Source: Marinobacter sp. (lineage in GTDB: Bacteria; Pseudomonadota; Gammaproteobacteria; Pseudomonadales; Oleiphilaceae). From it: 64,000 nucleotides of DNA. Where the stretch lies: positions 124,001 through 188,000 of the forward strand of contig JAIUMV010000002.1 in the NCBI GenBank assembly GCA_022565395.1. Reading direction: 5' to 3'. The notes beneath the pieces are model-generated. The model did not search any database and was not told the origin of the DNA. It saw only the letters and a list, made by a program, of their open reading frames with translations. Shown here one piece after another: positions 53,788 to 62,426 of this stretch; the first letter of the stretch is position 1; each line of letters begins with the position of its first letter. The position numbers and the translations under genes are program-made.

Positions 53788-54438
53788 TCAGAAGCGGTAG
53801 GCAACGCCCAGATCGAAGGTGAGCTCAGTTAACTCCAGGTTGACACCAAGAGCGCTCGGACCAAATGTCTCTTTGGAATAAGAGGTGCGCAACACTTCTG
53901 CAGTCAACATCACCCGTTCAGTGAGGTACTGGCGCGCACCAAAGCCAATGGCAAAGCCGGCAGCGGTTTCATCTGCTTTTTCTGTACCTGACGGCCCCTT
54001 GGCCACAAACTCAAACTCTCGCTGCTGGTACCCCAGCGTTGTGTACAGCATGGTAGAAGGTGAAGGCACATAACCCACGATAGCTTTCAGTGAGAAACCC
54101 GGGCCTGCTTCAAGCGCTGTAGACTCACCTGGCGCACTGATAAACTTTTCATCAAAGGTATTAACCGCGACATAGCTTAGCTGGCCGCCCAGATACAGAC
54201 CCGGCATGACTTCCATGCCGTAGCCACCGAACAGTTCGATGCGGTCGAGGCCCATGCTGTCAAAACCTACAGTACTAGAACCCGGCTGCCCATCTACCGT
54301 TAGTTCGGCTGTCAGGTTGGTAAACAGACCCAACTGGGCGCCGGCATAGGCGCCGTCAAAACTACCCGCCATTGCACCATGAGACATGGCCATACCCAGC
54401 GCCGCAGCGCCAACAAAGCGTGAAAACTTGTTCGTCAT
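53788..54438 (-). CDS. Small outer-membrane beta-barrel protein
   Basis: A 216-residue protein with a signal peptide (FVGAAALGMAMSHGAMA) and about eight alternating beta strands (GAYAGAQLGLF, IELFGGYGMEV, LYLGGQLSYVA, MLYTTLGYQQREFEF, MLTAEVLRTSYS), ending YRF with terminal Phe, the signature for outer-membrane insertion. It belongs to the OmpX/OmpW/opacity-like eight-stranded barrels. ATG 54436-54438 has GGAG upstream; a TTG at 54489 would precede the signal. Its promoter carries the 19-bp lux-box-like site at 54539-54557. Confidence 0.85.
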   Translation of the reverse strand: MTNKFSRFVGAAALGMAMSHGAMAGSFDGAYAGAQLGLFTNLTAELTVDGQPGSSTVGFDSMGLDRIELFGGYGMEVMPGLYLGGQLSYVAVNTFDEKFISAPGESTALEAGPGFSLKAIVGYVPSPSTMLYTTLGYQQREFEFVAKGPSGTEKADETAAGFAIGFGARQYLTERVMLTAEVLRTSYSKETFGPSALGVNLELTELTFDLGVAYRF

Positions 54439-54513: not shown

Positions 54514-54557
54514 AGTTTATGACGCAGTGCACACGGGCGAATCTACCATATGGTATA
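54514..54557 (-). promoter_or_regulatory. Lux-box-like promoter of the barrel gene
   Basis: On the minus strand TATACCATATGGTAGATTC (54557-54539) contains the perfect palindrome TACCATATGGTA (54544-54555). Exactly 24 bases further lies TAAACT (54519-54514), a -10 hexamer with four matches to consensus. If -10 begins at -12, the palindrome is centred at -42.5. The same site and spacing occur upstream of two other genes (54645 and 59356). Confidence 0.7.
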
Positions 54558-54644
54558 TAAATACGTTTTTTTACGTTTCTTTACATTGAGCAGCGACTGC
54601 AAAAACAACGGGTTAACAAAAATAGTCACAGCCATTGCCATGTT

Positions 54645-54688
54645 TATACCAGATGGTAGATGCGCCTATCCGCCAGCTTCCCTAGCCT
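54645..54688 (+). promoter_or_regulatory. Lux-box-like promoter of the lipoprotein gene at 54729
   Basis: TATACCAGATGGTAGATGC (54645-54663) contains TACCAGATGGTA (54647-54658), then 24 bases, then TAGCCT (54683-54688) as -10. The spacing and orientation equal those of the divergent barrel promoter, whose own box is 103 bases away. Two separate boxes in one intergenic region, one for each gene. Confidence 0.7.
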
Positions 54689-54728
54689 GCAGAGGTTCCT
54701 TTTAACTCCATCAGGATGGAAGCTGACT

Positions 54729-56159
54729 ATGCATACAAAAAAACATCTTCTCGGGCTGGCGGTACTTGGCGCATCACTCACCTTGGCGGGCTGTGGCGGC
54801 TCAAGCGGAGGTGGTGGAGGTGGCATTACGACTCAGCCAGAAGCCTTACCGACTCCGTTTGCGTTCAATCAAACCGCCGAAGACGCACTGGCCGAGATGA
54901 AAGGCATCCCCGCTAAGGCATTCCCGCCCGAGTTGTATGATTTTTTACGCACACACCTGATCGAGGGTAACAACACATCCGGTGTATCGCGCTTCGAAAA
55001 CTGGGTAACGCAAGGCGTTAGCGCCCCTGTCAACACGGCTCCTCCCCGAAATTGTGGTGGGTCATCCACCACCTTCGGAACCGTTAAAACAGGGGATGGT
55101 TTTCTTGCCCCGTCTACTGACAACACCTATCTACTGACTGACGTCACCAATGACGAAATAGGGCAGACTCTTGGAGGTAACGCGTCACTGTACCGCAGTG
55201 CAGTGACCGTGATCTTTACCGATTGCCAAATCGTCTCAACCGCTGACAATACAACGGTGGTAGCCACCGTGAATGGACCAGTGCTCTTAGAGCGCACCTG
55301 GGTCGGTGAGTCTGGATCACCTAGCGCAGATAATCGCATGGACAACTTTTCTTTCCGGTTCGGCTTTAACGGCCCTGTTAGCATCACCGACCTCAACGAT
55401 GTCGATTATGAGCTGCAAGGTACCTTTATCGATACTCACGTGTTTGATGAAATCACCGCAAGTGAGCAACAAGCCATCGGTAACTTAACGACCGTTTCAA
55501 GTCACTTTGTTCGCAGCCGGTTAGCAGCAAACGACTATAAAGGCATGTATGCCTTCGATGCGCCGAATCTGAGAATCATTACCACACCCAATGGCGGCAC
55601 AGCCTCACAGGTGCAGTTCAACAACTTTGCGTCTGTTTTTTTGGCCCCCACCGTGTTGGGTAACAACACGCCCGATGTCTACAGTCTGTATGTCGAGTCA
55701 CCCTACCGGGATGATGTAAATGCCGAAGCAAGCGCCATCGTATTCGGTAGTGGTGAGGATGCCGAAACGCTCTTTATCGAAACCCTGTCAAACGGTGGCA
55801 ATGATCAATTCATTACGGCCATTTTCGATTTTGTTGGGGATGAAACGGCCTTCTTGCGTGGCAGATCCGTAGTAGATACCGCACGTCTCGATTGTCCAAC
55901 CAATGCGAGCATTGGCTATTCCACTACACCCAGTGCACCACTGGTGGCCGGTTTGAGCTTTCTGGATGTAAATAGTGTTGAAACCGTTCGTGTCTTCGTG
56001 GATGAGAACAACACACAAACCGACCGCGACCCTGCGGCGGCGATATCAACCGCCAGTCACGATGCGGCCTGTCGCGATGATGAAAATGGGCCAACCAAGT
56101 TTATTCCACTTCCCGGATTGGGCTCAATTTCTTATAAGCCTTTAGCCCTAAATTTTTAA
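54729..56159 (+). CDS. Gly-linker lipoprotein of unknown function
   Basis: A 476-residue lipoprotein with lipobox TLAGC and a GGSSGGGGGG linker. The mature part is beta-rich with scattered Cys and no recognised domain; notable segments are YLLTDVTNDEIGQTLGGNASLY and FGFNGPVSITDLNDVDYELQGTFID. ATG 54729 has GGAAG 6 bases upstream; an in-frame ATG at 54660 lies inside the promoter site and is not used. Expected on the outer membrane. It is divergent from the barrel gene and shares its regulatory motif. Confidence 0.75.
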   Translation: MHTKKHLLGLAVLGASLTLAGCGGSSGGGGGGITTQPEALPTPFAFNQTAEDALAEMKGIPAKAFPPELYDFLRTHLIEGNNTSGVSRFENWVTQGVSAPVNTAPPRNCGGSSTTFGTVKTGDGFLAPSTDNTYLLTDVTNDEIGQTLGGNASLYRSAVTVIFTDCQIVSTADNTTVVATVNGPVLLERTWVGESGSPSADNRMDNFSFRFGFNGPVSITDLNDVDYELQGTFIDTHVFDEITASEQQAIGNLTTVSSHFVRSRLAANDYKGMYAFDAPNLRIITTPNGGTASQVQFNNFASVFLAPTVLGNNTPDVYSLYVESPYRDDVNAEASAIVFGSGEDAETLFIETLSNGGNDQFITAIFDFVGDETAFLRGRSVVDTARLDCPTNASIGYSTTPSAPLVAGLSFLDVNSVETVRVFVDENNTQTDRDPAAAISTASHDAACRDDENGPTKFIPLPGLGSISYKPLALNF

Positions 56160-56172
56160 CTAGCGATTTAGC

Positions 56173-56206
56173 AGCCGTCACTGGATCGTAAGATCCGTGA
56201 CGGCTT
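56173..56206 (+). terminator. Long hairpin after the lipoprotein gene
   Basis: A 14-bp stem with one bulged T (56173-56187 with 56192-56205) and a GTAA loop, 13 bases after the stop codon; the T-run is weak. A likely terminator. Confidence 0.6.
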
Positions 56207-56436
56207 GCCTGAACCATTCCCAACTTGCCTCATCCAGCCAGATTGCCGTACACGCCCTATCCAGCAAACACTGACGCGCCCAAGCTACTCTCTGGCCGTG
56301 ATTATCCGGATAACCCATCCAATCGTAACCGTTCCATATCCGCACGTTTTCGTATACTCGATCGTTTGATATAAAACAGCACCTTATGGTTGCAGTATGG
56401 GTATTCCGTCATACCGAGATTAAAACACGATGCCAT

Positions 56437-56461
56437 AAAAAAGGCCTTGCAGAGCAAGGCC
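56437..56461 (-). terminator. Rho-independent terminator of the FG-GAP lipoprotein gene
   Basis: On the minus strand GGCCTTGC and GCAAGGCC form an 8-bp stem with a 3-base loop, followed by six T. It lies 23 bases past the stop codon. Confidence 0.88.
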
Positions 56462-56484
56462 AAAGATAGGTAACCGTATGAAGG

Positions 56485-59271
56485 TTAGTACAAGTAGGCG
56501 CGGCCTTCTTCACCTTCCGAACTGCCATTGCTGGGCTCGCCAATCAAAATGGTAGATGCATTGCCAGACATGGCGGCTGCATGACCAAAGCGGCCTGATT
56601 CCACCGGCGTTGGCGCCTTGATCAGCACATCTTCACTAAGCGTCATTGCAGTGGCATCAAAGCTGAACAAGAAGGCGGCGCCGGCTTGATCGTGCAAGTT
56701 ACTTGCACCCGGAGAGGCAAAACTGGAAAGTCCTTCCACATTCGACCCCTCAGTTTGAGCACCCACCAACAGTTTGCTGCCATCGCTCGTTAATGCCAGC
56801 GAATAGCCGAAGTTCATACCTGAATTTGCTAGGCCTTGAGGCACAACGGACCTTTTTTCAAACCAAGCATCTCCCCAGGCTGCCATAGGTTCTTTATGCA
56901 TAATATAAGCCGCGCCATCAAAACCACCTGCTGCATAAGCGCCCACGGCGATGGTATTGCCATCCTTTGACATGGCAACGGCCGAGCCAAACAGATCCTG
57001 ATTGCGGTTACCATTCAAGTTGAAGTTACCACGCTCTCCCCAATTGAAATTAGGGTTAGAGACTGTTGGGGTATCAAATACATACAATTTTTCAGGGTTG
57101 TCATAGAAGCCGCTTACACCGAAATGGGGTGCACCGACGGCGATGCTTGTCGCAGTATCGTTGGCAGCCACCGACCAGCCAAAACCACTGAAGCGCCGCG
57201 TATCGGAAGGCTTGATGTAAAGCATTTGCTGCCAGACTGGATTGCTGCTCACCGTCAAAGCATAGACGAACACTGCCCCCGAATTACTGCCTCCATTGAT
57301 ACTAGTTGGCGGATTCGTATTGGTGGTACCAGCAGTGTAAATACCTATGTATTCGTTACTCTCTCCAGGTGCGCCAACTACAACGCGATTGCCTGTATCA
57401 CTAATCGCCACCGAGTGACCAAAACGCGCAGAGGCTAACTCTGCTGCACCGCCTAATTCTTGTGAGCCCGTGCGCGGATCGGCTTTAAAATAGGCTCTGA
57501 AATCGTAGCGGTTCTGCCCTTGATTGTAGGTGAACACATAGGCTGCGCCGCTTTCAAAATCCAGGGAGCCACCAGGAGCGCTGGCTGAGGTGAATACACC
57601 TCTGGCACGGTTACGATCACCAGGTGCGCCCACAACCAGGGTGTTGCCATTGCCAGAAAGAGCAAGGGCATAGCCAAATTCAAACACGTTCGTGGTACTG
57701 GGCGGTAGAATGTCGTCCAAGCGCGTCCAGCTGCCGTTGTTATTGCGCCAGATGCTCACGCGACCGGTTTCTTTGGTGCCAGTCATGGGGCCCGGCGCGC
57801 CGATGGCAATGGTCGAACCGTCACGAGAAACGGCAACCGCTTGGCCAAAGGCTTGTTGCAAGCTGGTGGCAGCAACATCGGGGTCCAGCTGAGCAATACC
57901 GGCGATGAGATCGTTCGCTGTCAAATCAACACGGTTAGCATTGGTCGAGGCAGCACAGCTACCATTCTGTTGGCAGGCTTCCAGAAAGTAATGCTGACCA
58001 ATGTTCAAGGGCAGTGAAACGCCAGTTAATACGTACTCTGTCGTCGAAGCGTTAAGGGTCTCGATAAGATTTGAGCCAGAATCCTCTAAACGGTATTCCC
58101 CAGCACCCGTAACCGGCTGCCAGCTAAAACGCAACGTTTTTGGCGATTCAACCGCTACCGACAGGGTTGTGCCCGGAATGAAGTTAACATCCACAGTGCA
58201 GTCCTCAACAATGGCGGCAGTAATGACTTCATTGTTTTCAAAGTTAGCCTCACAGCCAGTGACGCTACCCAAGCTGTTGCCCGGTGGCGGTGTTGCGGTA
58301 AATGTAAACGTCTCGCCTGGCATGACCGGCCAATTGCTTGTGTCGCCGCCTACCCTAACGGTGACGACCGGGTTTTTTGCAAAGGTAACATTCAGGGTGC
58401 AGGGTGCCGTGGCTGAGGGTAGCTGGTAGTTATACGACTGATTTGCAACGGCTGTAATTCCGCAGCCACTGACTTCCTCCAAATACCAGCCAGTATCGGG
58501 CAGGATATTCAAGGGTGAATTTGCAGCCTGGCTAACTCTGGTCGGTTCAGCATTGCCCTCAAAAAGTGAGACAACCGCACCGTTACCTGTTTTATTCAGC
58601 GTCAGCGCGTGCGTGATGTCTTGTACTTGGAAATTCACTGTGCAATCGGCGTTAATGGGGTCAGTTGTGAAGACATTGTTCGCCCCCATGGCGCCATCAC
58701 AGCCCTCAGCACGCACTTCACTGTTCTGATCTTGCAATACGTTTGAAAAGTCAATGGTTGCAGTTTCCCCCTGGAATATAAATTGGGGTGGACGAGAAGC
58801 CACCGGATTAAATATGTTCGTTGAGAAGGAACCCCGAGCCTGTGAAACGGTAAAACCTTGAGCAAACTCTACTTCGACGGTACAGTCTGCGTTAATGGTC
58901 CCTGTCCGGTAGGCGCCACCTGATGTACCACTGGTTGATACAGGCGAAATGCCGCAGCCAGAGAAGTTCTTGACACCGGCACCAGCATTCGGGGTAAGGA
59001 TGAACTCTGCAGAAGTGCCGTCATCGGGCACGGTAAAACTGAGCTGCTGAGGAGATATAGCGCCAGGGCCTGTTACATTCGTTGAGATGGTGTAGGTCGT
59101 ACCACCAGGCCCAGGGTCGACAGGATCAACGGGATCCACCGGGTTGGTTGGATTAACTGGATTGTTAGGCCCACTGGCAGAATCTGAAGAGCCCCCACCG
59201 CTTGAACCACCACACCCTGAAAGTGTTAGCACTGCGCCCAATAAAAGCGGGCCCATTATTGCCTTATTCAT
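56485..59271 (-). CDS. FG-GAP repeat lipoprotein with GC-DCTV modules
   Basis: A 928-residue lipoprotein: lipobox TLSGC (about 16-20), a Gly/Ser and Pro-Asx-rich linker with repeated NPVDPVDP units, about four Cys-paired beta modules of the form GC ... DCTVxVxF (residues 50-370), a fibronectin III-like stretch, and from about 460 on a run of FG-GAP-type repeats (FGYALALSGNGNTLVVGAPG, ARFGHSVAISDTGNRVVVGAPG, FGSAVAMSKDGNTIAVGA) that should fold into a beta-propeller. Such propellers bind ligands or matrix at the cell surface. ATG 59269-59271 has AAGGA at 7 bases. Its promoter carries the 19-bp lux-box-like site. Confidence 0.82.
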   Translation of the reverse strand: MNKAIMGPLLLGAVLTLSGCGGSSGGGSSDSASGPNNPVNPTNPVDPVDPVDPGPGGTTYTISTNVTGPGAISPQQLSFTVPDDGTSAEFILTPNAGAGVKNFSGCGISPVSTSGTSGGAYRTGTINADCTVEVEFAQGFTVSQARGSFSTNIFNPVASRPPQFIFQGETATIDFSNVLQDQNSEVRAEGCDGAMGANNVFTTDPINADCTVNFQVQDITHALTLNKTGNGAVVSLFEGNAEPTRVSQAANSPLNILPDTGWYLEEVSGCGITAVANQSYNYQLPSATAPCTLNVTFAKNPVVTVRVGGDTSNWPVMPGETFTFTATPPPGNSLGSVTGCEANFENNEVITAAIVEDCTVDVNFIPGTTLSVAVESPKTLRFSWQPVTGAGEYRLEDSGSNLIETLNASTTEYVLTGVSLPLNIGQHYFLEACQQNGSCAASTNANRVDLTANDLIAGIAQLDPDVAATSLQQAFGQAVAVSRDGSTIAIGAPGPMTGTKETGRVSIWRNNNGSWTRLDDILPPSTTNVFEFGYALALSGNGNTLVVGAPGDRNRARGVFTSASAPGGSLDFESGAAYVFTYNQGQNRYDFRAYFKADPRTGSQELGGAAELASARFGHSVAISDTGNRVVVGAPGESNEYIGIYTAGTTNTNPPTSINGGSNSGAVFVYALTVSSNPVWQQMLYIKPSDTRRFSGFGWSVAANDTATSIAVGAPHFGVSGFYDNPEKLYVFDTPTVSNPNFNWGERGNFNLNGNRNQDLFGSAVAMSKDGNTIAVGAYAAGGFDGAAYIMHKEPMAAWGDAWFEKRSVVPQGLANSGMNFGYSLALTSDGSKLLVGAQTEGSNVEGLSSFASPGASNLHDQAGAAFLFSFDATAMTLSEDVLIKAPTPVESGRFGHAAAMSGNASTILIGEPSNGSSEGEEGRAYLY

Positions 59272-59355
59272 ACAGCCATCCTTCTACGAAGTTATTGAAC
59301 ACCCAGCACACAGCGGCATCCTGTACTCATTCGGTGGAGTACCAGCCAGCGGCTA

Positions 59356-59399
59356 AGTCTAAATACCTCCAAAGATCACGGCATCTCCCATCTGGTATA
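59356..59399 (-). promoter_or_regulatory. Lux-box-like promoter of the FG-GAP lipoprotein gene
   Basis: On the minus strand TATACCAGATGGGAGATGC (59399-59381) contains TACCAGATGGGA, one mismatch from the palindrome, then 24 bases, then TAGACT (59361-59356) as -10. The arrangement is identical to the two promoters at 54514 and 54645. Read toward the regulator gene at 59522 there is no -10 at the matching distance, so the box seems to serve the lipoprotein gene. Confidence 0.68.
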
Positions 59400-59521: not shown

Positions 59522-61192
59522 ATGCCTGATAACAAAAAACTGACGACACTGATCACTGATGTTGCTGAAAAGCGGGCAGAGTTTACTGAACTGGTAGAAA
59601 CCCTCGCGCCTGAACTCAGTACTGATAACGACCTGCCAACAGAGCTCGCCCTGGAGTTGTCTACCGCACTGCATGAGGTGGAACAAAGCGTAGGCAAAGA
59701 CGATCCGCTTTACAGACTGGTTAATGAACAATCCGCACCGGCGTTAGCGCTGAATGAAGCCGGCCAGGTGATTGCGCTGAACATAGGCGCCGTGCAATTG
59801 TTTCGCTTGCAGTCGGGGGAAGGTACCACCTCCCTCGGCATCGCGGCTGAGGAGTTTCATGCCTTTAAAGAGCGCCTGGCCACGGTTCCTGGGCCAACGC
59901 TGATTAAAGTATTCCGCAGCGGCGCTCCCGGCGAATCACTGCCGCTGATTTTGGTGGGGACTTACCATGCGCGCCTGCGGGCCTTCGTCCTGACGGCGCT
60001 GCAGCAACACTGGCCAGAATCCATTGACCGGGCTTTTGCCGACCTTTTTCGGCTTTCAGTGAGTGAGCGGAGAATTCTGGCACTACTCTCCCGTGGCATG
60101 GGCACGGATGAGATCGCCGCAGAGCGCGGGAGCACGGTGGCTACCGTACGACAGCAGATTAAGGCCGTGCTACAGAAGCTAGGGGCGACCAGTCAGGTGC
60201 AGGCTGCAACCCTGGCCGCAGCAGCTTCCACAGCAGTAGATGCCGCCAATAGCAGAGGCGAGCTACTGAATCCCAACTTTGACGACCACCCCTTGAGTAT
60301 CCATGAATTTCAACGGGAAGGGCGCCGCATTGGCTGGCGGCGTTTTGGCAAACCAGGCGGTATTCCCGTGCTGCTTTTACACGGCCCTTCCTTCGGTGCA
60401 GGTGACTTTCCGAAAGAACGTAGCCTGGCGGAGACGTTTAATCTTGATATTATCGCTATTGAACGCCCCGGATACGGGCGCACCGACTCACCTGACGGTA
60501 ATGATGATCCGCTGACCTGCCAGTGTCAGGATGTAATGGCACTTCTCGCCCAGCAGGCGGTCGGCCACGTTTACATCATTGCCCATGAGGTGGCCCTTAT
60601 TACCGCACTGGCCCTGGCGCGACGCCCGCACCTCAAGGTTAAAGGCATCGTTTCTGTCTCAGCGGCGCCACCGTTCAGGGAGCTTCAGCAGATCAACGCT
60701 ATGCCCGCACATCAGGCTATTTTCATTCAGTCTGCCCGTCATGCGCCCTGGCTTGCGCGATTGATGATCCGGTTATTGATGGTGAGAATGCGCAAACTGG
60801 GCCCGGAAAAGTGGACAGATGTGGTGTTTGAGAGCGTGAAGGTGGACGAGACAGTCATACGCAGCCCGGAACTCAAGCAAGGTGTCATTGCGGCCTACGG
60901 TTTTTACGTCAACCAGATGGGTGCCGGCTACCTGAACGACCTGAAAGTGATGATCAAGGACTGGGGTGACCTGCTGCGCAGGATTCCAGTTCCGATCGTC
61001 ATGCTGCATGGAGATAGCAACGCATCAACGCCGGTGGAGCACCTTGAGGTGTTTCGTCAGATAGCGCCTGAGCTGCCTATCGACGTTATCCCCAACGAGG
61101 GCCTGACTTTGGCTGTATCGAGGCCGCATCTTATTTATGAGGCGGTTCTGAAGATGGACGCCCCCCTTGCAGAGATACCGGCAACCGCCTGA
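59522..61192 (+). CDS. PAS-LuxR HTH-alpha/beta-hydrolase regulator, hydrolase likely inactive
   Basis: A 556-residue protein with a PAS-like domain (65-150), a LuxR/GerE-type HTH in the middle (about 178-232: LSVSERRILALLSRGMGTDEIA, TVATVRQQIKAVLQKLG) and an alpha/beta-hydrolase domain (255-545). The oxyanion loop LLHGPSFGAGDF is recognisable, but the nucleophile elbow reads AHEVA (354-358, Glu356 for Ser), the acid position GDSN (Asn500) and the His position Leu528. It should therefore bind a small ligand without cleaving it, as D14/KAI2-like receptors are related to hydrolases. ATG 59522 has AGGA at 6 bases. It is divergent from the FG-GAP lipoprotein gene. Confidence 0.85.
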   Translation: MPDNKKLTTLITDVAEKRAEFTELVETLAPELSTDNDLPTELALELSTALHEVEQSVGKDDPLYRLVNEQSAPALALNEAGQVIALNIGAVQLFRLQSGEGTTSLGIAAEEFHAFKERLATVPGPTLIKVFRSGAPGESLPLILVGTYHARLRAFVLTALQQHWPESIDRAFADLFRLSVSERRILALLSRGMGTDEIAAERGSTVATVRQQIKAVLQKLGATSQVQAATLAAAASTAVDAANSRGELLNPNFDDHPLSIHEFQREGRRIGWRRFGKPGGIPVLLLHGPSFGAGDFPKERSLAETFNLDIIAIERPGYGRTDSPDGNDDPLTCQCQDVMALLAQQAVGHVYIIAHEVALITALALARRPHLKVKGIVSVSAAPPFRELQQINAMPAHQAIFIQSARHAPWLARLMIRLLMVRMRKLGPEKWTDVVFESVKVDETVIRSPELKQGVIAAYGFYVNQMGAGYLNDLKVMIKDWGDLLRRIPVPIVMLHGDSNASTPVEHLEVFRQIAPELPIDVIPNEGLTLAVSRPHLIYEAVLKMDAPLAEIPATA

Positions 61193-61216: not shown

Positions 61217-61570
61217 TCATTCGATGTCGCAGTGACGAGTCACTATATGACGCCAGCAGCGCTCGATCTCTGTGACAGAGGCCTTACTCCCTTTTTTAAC
61301 AAGAGGGACGTCTGAAGGTGCGGGGGCGAGATGCTCCAGCAACCAGTCATCTGACCAGCCATCCCAAACACCAAACAGGCTACGCAGATTGCTTTCCAAC
61401 ACCGGGAAAACCTCCAGCCACAGTATGCTTTCTGCCTCATCCAGCGAATAGCCTGATTCTCGGATCGTGCGCACAATATAGGTGTAGGTTACATCCGTGG
61501 GCTCTGAATCCAGGAACAGCTCTGACAAGGCCCGCCAGAGCGGCAGGCGGGCATCAATCTCTTCGTTCAA
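61217..61570 (-). CDS. Small hypothetical protein, DUF7079-like
   Basis: A 117-residue cytoplasmic protein with RLPLWRALSELFLDSEPTDV and a C-terminal IERCWRHIV; the first segment recalls DUF7079-type proteins often found near toxin-immunity loci. No partner is visible. The TTG at 61570 has AAAGGA at 7 bases; a TTG at 61600 would add 10 residues. Convergent with the LuxR-type regulator. Function unknown. Confidence 0.6.
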   Translation of the reverse strand: MNEEIDARLPLWRALSELFLDSEPTDVTYTYIVRTIRESGYSLDEAESILWLEVFPVLESNLRSLFGVWDGWSDDWLLEHLAPAPSDVPLVKKGSKASVTEIERCWRHIVTRHCDIE

Positions 61571-61748
61571 CGGGTGGTCCTTTATCTGTCCAGTCGTCAA
61601 AAAGTCAAAGGCAACTGTCGATTTTCTTTACAAAGGTAAAGATTGCATTCAGACAGCCTGTTGATTTTATGATCATTTTATTTATGGCACGTAAGATGCT
61701 TAGAGGCATAGCAGATTCTTCCGATAATGAAGTACGGAGACTACAACC

Positions 61749-62426
61749 ATGCTACGCCTGCTTACCCTGTTGTTCTGCGCTGTGATAGCGACGTCCTTTG
61801 CTCAAGCCGCACCGATCACTTGGAGCAGCACCCAGTCAAGCCCTCAGTCCCTGCTTTCGGCAGGCCAGAGTGTTGATCTGACCTTCGACATTACCTCTGC
61901 CTTCAACCTCGAAACAGATCTGATCACCGGCTTCACATTTTCCTGGGCACTGCGGGATAATGACGCTGACTACGTGACAAGGTACCTGTCGGTTTATGCA
62001 GGGCAAAGTTGTAATCGCAGGCGCACAAACTGCGTAGACCATTTTAACTACGTACCAGTACTCACACTGGGCCTTCTGGAATCCGCACGTATCACTGCAG
62101 CAGGCTATGACTCAGGCAGCTTCTCTGTCGGCAGCACCTGTTCTGGTGCGGCCTGTAACCTGAATAACAATATCTGGGACGTGACCCATACCTTTGCTGA
62201 TACCGCAGAAGGCCTGGCCTTGCTGCAGAGCAGCGGTGTGTTTGAGGTGTCGTTGGCAGCCATGACTGGCGATTTCTTTGTCCGCCACGCCAACCTGACT
62301 GTCACCGGTATCAAAGGTGGCTTGAAAACACTGGCGGTCAGCGAGCCTGGCACAGCCGGTATGTTGCTGATGGGGCTTTCAGCGCTGGTTATCATGCGCA
62401 GAAAAGCCGCGAAAGCAACCAGCTAA
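61749..62426 (+). CDS. PEP-CTERM sorting-domain protein
   Basis: A 225-residue exported protein: signal peptide (LLTLLFCAVIATSFAQA), a beta-rich body with one Cys pair region (CNRRRTNC) and another (CSGAAC), and a C-terminal tripartite tail (SEPGTAGMLL, hydrophobic helix, MRRKAAK) of PEP-CTERM type, which an exosortase system recognises in exopolysaccharide producers. ATG 61749 has GGAG upstream. No exosortase gene is in the window. The body has no known domain. Confidence 0.8.
   Translation: MLRLLTLLFCAVIATSFAQAAPITWSSTQSSPQSLLSAGQSVDLTFDITSAFNLETDLITGFTFSWALRDNDADYVTRYLSVYAGQSCNRRRTNCVDHFNYVPVLTLGLLESARITAAGYDSGSFSVGSTCSGAACNLNNNIWDVTHTFADTAEGLALLQSSGVFEVSLAAMTGDFFVRHANLTVTGIKGGLKTLAVSEPGTAGMLLMGLSALVIMRRKAAKATS

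Follow-up and report, generated by a model that had tools for sequence, protein, structure and literature searches.

A 64,000-nucleotide stretch of the Marinobacter sp. genome (assembly GCA_022565395.1, contig JAIUMV010000002.1, positions 124,001 to 188,000; this whole stretch is hereafter the window) contains three 19-bp sites, each upstream of a gene for a putative surface protein and each followed by a sequence resembling a -10 promoter element. The three sites are probably operators of the regulator with a LuxR-type helix-turn-helix (HTH) domain that is encoded at 59522-61192 of the window. This regulator would act as an activator of class II type, with a pseudo-hydrolase domain as its sensor, and would control a small regulon of surface proteins.

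Three predicted operators and their putative target genes

The sites, the putative -10 elements, the predicted target genes and the regulator gene have the following positions in the window:

54557-54539, minus strand: site 1, TATACCATATGGTAGATTC, core 54555-54544, upstream of the beta-barrel gene
54519-54514, minus strand: putative -10 element of the beta-barrel gene, TAAACT, 24 nucleotides past core 1
53788-54438, minus strand: target 1, outer-membrane beta-barrel protein of 216 amino acids (OMP_b-brl, PF13505, E 7.2e-13)
54645-54663, plus strand: site 2, TATACCAGATGGTAGATGC, core 54647-54658, upstream of the lipoprotein gene
54683-54688, plus strand: putative -10 element of the lipoprotein gene, TAGCCT, 24 nucleotides past core 2
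54729-56159, plus strand: target 2, lipoprotein of 476 amino acids without a Pfam family
59399-59381, minus strand: site 3, TATACCAGATGGGAGATGC, core 59397-59386, between the FG-GAP gene and the divergent regulator gene
59361-59356, minus strand: putative -10 element of the FG-GAP gene, TAGACT, 24 nucleotides past core 3
56485-59271, minus strand: target 3, FG-GAP repeat lipoprotein of 928 amino acids (FG-GAP_2, PF14312, E 7.6e-29)
59522-61192, plus strand: regulator of 556 amino acids, with a weakly PAS-like N-terminus, a GerE/LuxR HTH domain (residues 178-232) and an alpha/beta-hydrolase domain (residues 283-537)

The sites and their coordinates proved exact, letter for letter, as the original prediction gave them, as did the distance of exactly 24 bases from core to hexamer in all three cases and the presence of a GerE-HTH protein adjoining the third site. 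The pattern TATACCAKATGGKAGATKC, with up to three mismatches allowed, matched the window three times, each time perfectly, and 100 shuffles gave a mean of 0.07 matches (maximum 1). The genome-wide search that had been proposed, made with TATACCANNTGGNAGATNC, returned three perfect matches in the Marinobacter sp. genome (3.89 Mb), six matches with two mismatches (the surroundings of three were viewed) and nothing with a single mismatch, and the same pattern read backwards returned one match within two mismatches. The shuffle count and the genome-wide search together exclude a chance origin of the three sites in the window and in the genome.

The shorter 17-mer TACCANNTGGTAGATGC gave one extra match with one mismatch in this genome (C9:137331) and six extra matches with two. 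As the former lies inside a RecA-like reading frame (the frame was named by eye), and as there were no further matches within one mismatch of TATACCANNTGGNAGATNC, additional regulon members within one mismatch in this genome were rejected.

No sigma70 promoter of consensus -35/-10 type was found upstream of the three target genes in a consensus scan, which gave five promoter-like matches in the region, no more than in shuffles. The absence of a recognisable -35 element at the three target promoters favours activation. The proposed binding site of the regulator is the TACCA-2-TGGTA dyad together with its GATGC extension, centred near -42.5 relative to the transcription start sites predicted at about 54507 (minus strand), 54695 (plus strand) and 59349 (minus strand), and the bound regulator would activate, in a class II manner, sigma70-type promoters that have a -10 element (TAnnnT; here TARMCT) and no recognisable -35 element. 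Class II promoters (-42.5) have their operator next to the -35 region and at a constant distance from the -10 element, an arrangement that is present here as far as sequence can tell.

Conservation of the operator and its spacing

Eighteen sites from the window and from relatives that carry the regulator were compared. Four elements are invariant in this set: TACC, TGG, the T within GATGC and the A that occupies core position 12. The conserved operator is a dyad of 12 bp whose halves are 2 bp apart, extended on one side by GATGC. The sequence TA...T is found at a distance of 24 nucleotides in 11 of the 18 sites, and the remaining 49 spacings (10 to 59) together yield it a single time; after the addition of the sites of G493 and G461, TAnnnT is found at this distance in 12 of 20. 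The locus in G065, a genome from another family of the order, has TACCATATGGTAGATGC-N19-TAACCT upstream of a lipoprotein operon, with the spacing seen in the window. When matrices were built with each genome left out in turn, all 18 sites were top-ranked in their 15 loci (the top three in the window, with a matrix that excluded its own genome, and the top two in G238, a Saccharospirillum record), with scores of 18.7 to 42.7, against a maximum of 18.6 when one strand of 3 Mb of random sequence was scored with the full matrix as a null set.

The same two conserved blocks at a fixed spacing might be read as the promoter of an alternative sigma factor that needs no activator. This is highly improbable, as the upstream block is a dyad, which is typical of a dimeric binder, is centred too far upstream to be a -35 element, and co-occurs with an HTH regulator.

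Other strong matrix matches are the dyads of the sites themselves, taken on the opposite strand, with scores of 22.8 in Alcanivorax, 20.6 in G215 and 16.4 in the window. A further match, TACCATTTAGTATAAGC, which reads as TTATACTAAATGGTATAA, is located upstream of regulator copy a, with a score of 22.9 in G065 and 18.0 in G238. The regulators are tandem pairs in these two genomes, and the symmetric TTATACTAAATGGTATAA occupies L040:11441-11458 (G065) and L053:7423-7440 (G238). Its position upstream of copy a suggests that the regulator may control its own gene in both.

As judged by eye, TTATACTAAATGGTATAA also overlaps a -10-like TATACT upstream of copy a in both genomes, and the dyad at the target genes would span about -48 to -37, adjoining the -35 region. 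Both points would suit a regulator that binds the sites but represses from beside the -35 region until a ligand releases it. Repression is nonetheless unlikely, because the three target promoters lack a recognisable -35 element, which favours activation, and because the fixed 24-nucleotide distance is a requirement of class II contact.

Distribution of the regulator and co-occurrence with the site

The distribution of the regulator is patchy. In a first search of 97 genomes, including that of the window, only G065 had close homologues (48% identity, two tandem copies), and other matches had E values of 5e-22 or weaker. A scan of the contigs of named genomes with the single protein as query gave no match; later queries were an alignment of three proteins, the window regulator and the two G065 copies. 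With the alignment as query, 7 of the 390 genomes sampled from the order, that of the window among them, have a homologue at E<=1e-30, and a scan of named genomes matched Natronospirillum sp., Saccharospirillum sp., Marinobacter zhejiangensis and Alcanivorax sp. Denser searches of three families at E<=1e-60 found the regulator in 5 of 44, 3 of 46 and 4 of 22 genomes, and a class-wide search at the same threshold found it in one of 369, which was the window's own. In all, the regulator genomes number 13 with G handles (among them G000, the genome of the window; G238; G473, an Alcanivorax record; and G493, a Natronospirillum record) plus Marinobacter zhejiangensis. A search of plasmids at E<=1e-20 matched only a Tistrella mobilis homologue (27% identical, with 97% of the regulator covered), located at NC_017958.1:179624-181138 in a plasmid record of 1.1 Mb.

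The motif TACCANNTGGTAGATGC was defined on the window and G065, and later searches used it without alteration. Exact matches were found in six of the 390 genomes of the order (G000, G065, G215, G271, G431 and G304, twice in G271), of which five are regulator genomes (Fisher p 1.7e-9; 4e-6 when the motif-defining G000 and G065 are omitted). The match in the sixth, G304, is inside a long reading frame. The motif read backwards matched one genome of the 390. Of the 11 remaining genomes that have both a G handle and the regulator, six have an exact match (G215, G271, G431, G444, G473 and G493), compared with one of 383 genomes without the regulator (Fisher p 6e-10).

The original prediction had proposed a search of orthologous loci and had named a lack of conservation among relatives as a refutation; the site is indeed conserved in several families, beside regulator homologues and 5' of the same kinds of genes. 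In ten genomes besides that of the window (G065, G238, G271, G215, G361, G444, G459, G488, Marinobacter zhejiangensis and Alcanivorax sp.), it lies no more than about 5 kb from the regulator, 5' of a gene for a lipoprotein, a barrel or another secreted protein. G461 has no site within three mismatches beside its regulator; a four-mismatch site 5' of the regulator scores 24.3, and its presumed target gene lies beyond the contig end. The Natronospirillum genome (G493) has no site on the regulator contig, which ends within regulator copy b, but its contig C13 bears an exact match that precedes a lipoprotein gene. A matrix search of five loci (L041, L060, L061, L118 and L052) found no site, the best score being 6.7.

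Some sites in G361, G271, G493 and G431 are on contigs other than that of the regulator, as might be expected if the sites were operators of a different transcription factor encoded elsewhere, with the LuxR-type gene a mere neighbour or another member of the locus. We consider this unlikely, since exact sites track the presence of the regulator, since a site lies so near to it in the ten genomes listed above, and since a different factor would need the same patchy distribution. The same four genomes bear on the earlier description of a local, undescribed regulon: it is local in the genome of the window but not in these relatives, and literature searches found no description of such a regulator or site in the collection covered.

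Predicted targets in relatives

The genes behind the sites suggest that the regulated products would be surface proteins: the barrel and two lipoproteins in the window, and Lcl_C, FG-GAP, immunoglobulin-like or barrel proteins in relatives (lipoproteins without a family were called from the N-terminal sequence, read by eye). In G271, one site precedes an orthologue (76% identical) of the window lipoprotein, and another, on a different contig, precedes an Lcl_C lipoprotein operon. Lcl_C lipoprotein operons also follow the sites of G065 and G238, within about 5 kb of the tandem regulators, and the regulator locus of G065 holds an FG-GAP lipoprotein as well. The sites of G215 and Alcanivorax belong to a barrel gene adjoining the regulator, whereas those beside divergent regulator genes precede large lipoproteins without Pfam matches (G361) or with immunoglobulin-like domains (G444), or an Lcl_C lipoprotein (G459). 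The G488 site precedes a gene for a 485-amino-acid protein with a signal-peptide-like start and no confident family, the site in Marinobacter zhejiangensis a lipoprotein-like frame with an uncertain start codon, and the two sites of G431 an FG-GAP lipoprotein and a second lipoprotein that is truncated where the contig stops.

In G238, two adjacent operons for Lcl_C lipoproteins (L056:13451 and 15562) have nearly identical promoters and are probably the outcome of a recent duplication of a regulon member. The lipoprotein encoded at 54729-56159 has a sole homologue at E<=1e-8 in the sample of the order, that of G271, which also has the site. This gene was tried as a control for sites without the regulator, and it failed as such, being present in 2 of 390 genomes, both with the regulator. 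The lipoproteins of the window and G271 are 76% identical, whereas the regulators are 51% identical, a gap that, with the patchy distribution, suggests horizontal transfer or unequal rates of change. Downstream of the regulator gene in the window are a DUF7079 gene (61217-61600) and a gene for a PEP-CTERM protein (61749-62426).

A regulator with an inactivated hydrolase domain

The GerE HTH domain (PF00196) of the window regulator was recognised with an E value of 1.3e-7 and 31.6 bits, against a cut-off of 23.5, and the domain was found in 12 of 12 family members at E<=0.5. A helix of the HTH domain reads TVRQQ in 15 of 16 members and TIRQQ in the other. Profile alignment identified NarL and DevR as relatives of the HTH domain with solved structures. 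A fold search listed ordinary alpha/beta hydrolases. The N-terminus matches MLTR_LBD in 3 of 12 members (best E 2.4e-5), and the order of its strands and helices in the low-confidence model is compatible with a PAS domain.

The catalytic triad was examined in an alignment of 16 members and four distant relatives, two fragments from G431 being left out; one Natronospirillum protein (copy b) is cut by a contig end, which leaves 15 members with a full C-terminus. The nucleophile serine is replaced in all 16 (by glutamate in 12 and by aspartate in four), the acid aspartate by asparagine in 15 of 15, and the histidine by leucine, glutamine or methionine in 15 of 15, whereas the Ser/Asp/His triad is kept in all four distant relatives. 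In a profile alignment to solved hydrolases, read by eye, the replaced columns are opposite the triad. Because serine, aspartate and histidine are all replaced, the domain does not match the catalytic hydrolases; it probably works as a domain for ligand binding or interaction, that is, as a sensor, and not as an enzyme.

Aspartate or glutamate is the nucleophile in haloalkane dehalogenases and epoxide hydrolases, and all 16 members retain the HG motif of the oxyanion side, so the acidic residues at the serine position could be taken to mark a live enzyme that senses by turnover. The loss of the base histidine and of the acid aspartate in every member with a full C-terminus makes this quite improbable.

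A sensor without catalysis is thus the preferred reading of the hydrolase domain: it would sense a ligand or bind a partner and, with the PAS-like N-terminus, set the activity of the central HTH domain. We suggest, tentatively, that the dead domain may be a receptor for a small molecule, for example an ester or a lactone, which would make the family one of one-component regulators that switch surface lipoproteins and barrels. Such a family could conceivably be a DNA-binding bacterial parallel to the hormone receptors of hydrolase fold in plants, a proposal that we hold as tentatively as the former.

Several observations weigh against the interpretation of the sites as operators of a regulator of this kind. 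Eight of the 20 sites lack TAnnnT at a distance of 24 nucleotides, where the sequence is TGGCCT (one site of G271), GCATGA (G215 and Alcanivorax), AGACAA and GATAAT (both sites of G361), CAAAAT (G444), AAGCAT (one site of G431) or CAACAA (G461). The matrix sites were picked by resemblance, which favours the matrix test, and the G488 site is marginal because its score of 18.7 is barely above the null maximum. The p values ignore kinship and, as the genomes are related, overstate independence; for the comparison of the 11 regulator genomes with the 383 others, p is 2e-8 when two genomes of one genus are counted once. The other five regulator genomes of that comparison have mismatches to the 17-mer, one in G361, two in G238 and G488, three in G459 and four in G461 (the last counted by hand), and Marinobacter zhejiangensis, of which the locus only was searched and which is outside the count of 11, has a site with three. 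Matches with three mismatches also arise by chance in loci of such size, so the weak sites lean on position and spacing. One site of G361, on contig C41, has no clear target because the nearest lipoprotein-like frame starts about 600 bases downstream. As to the regulator itself, the PAS domain PF00989 was recognised in 5 of 12 members, weakly (best E 0.005), and not in the window protein, and the structure model is poor, with a mean predicted local distance difference test score of 64.5, so that the ligand pocket could not be placed.

Comparison with known systems

In LuxR-type activation (PMC3376562), the lux box is 20 bp long and centred at -42.5, and the system described here resembles it in having a LuxR/GerE HTH domain and a dyad operator predicted near -42.5 at promoters with a -10 element and no clear -35 element. 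Unlike in the family of LuxR proteins responsive to acyl-homoserine lactones (AHL), the HTH domain is central (residues 178-232 of 556) and not C-terminal, and no match to an autoinducer-binding (AHL) domain was found in the window regulator with Pfam or NCBIfam. The 18 sites, with their 12-bp dyad, 2-bp gap and one-sided GATGC, do not make up a 20-bp operator of lux type, and the likeness to lux and las boxes that had been claimed is accordingly weak.

Alpha/beta-hydrolase and PAS parts also drive an output domain in the bipartite RsbQ-PAS (RsbQ-RsbP) sensing module, which consists of a separate hydrolase that requires its triad, beside a PAS-output protein with a phosphatase, histidine kinase or GGDEF output (Nadezhdin et al. 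2011, PMC3183031). In the regulator family described here, by contrast, a single protein unites the PAS-like part, the LuxR HTH domain and the hydrolase domain, which has lost the triad.

More distant regulators with a LuxR HTH domain followed by an alpha/beta-hydrolase domain are encoded by G064, G005, G002 and G035, with 22-26% identity over the aligned part; they differ in that the triad is intact and that TACCANNTGGNA is absent from the contigs carrying them. Their loci are L012, L013, L014 and L016, and in L013 and L014 a same-strand gene with an HTH-like end (judged by eye) directly adjoins. G064, in which only such a distant, triad-bearing relative of the regulator is found, has a perfect TACCATATGGTA at G064:C29:102789.

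The response regulators NarL and DevR share the GerE HTH domain, but no receiver domain was matched in the window regulator and the operator spacing is different; NarL operators are composed of heptamers in a 7-2-7 arrangement.

LuxR-type activation is itself known, and what would be new here is its combination with a new type of operator, with sensing by a pseudo-hydrolase and with a regulon of surface proteins. For surface proteins whose function is unknown, the analysis proposes a regulator, an operator and a promoter geometry that are kept over several families of one gammaproteobacterial order, with named records in Marinobacter, Alcanivorax, Saccharospirillum and Natronospirillum. Because the operator and its geometry are conserved, the regulon should be predictable from sequence in new genomes. 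The joining of a LuxR-type HTH domain to a hydrolase domain inactivated in all the members examined makes the reuse of hydrolase folds as receptors in bacteria a testable proposition.

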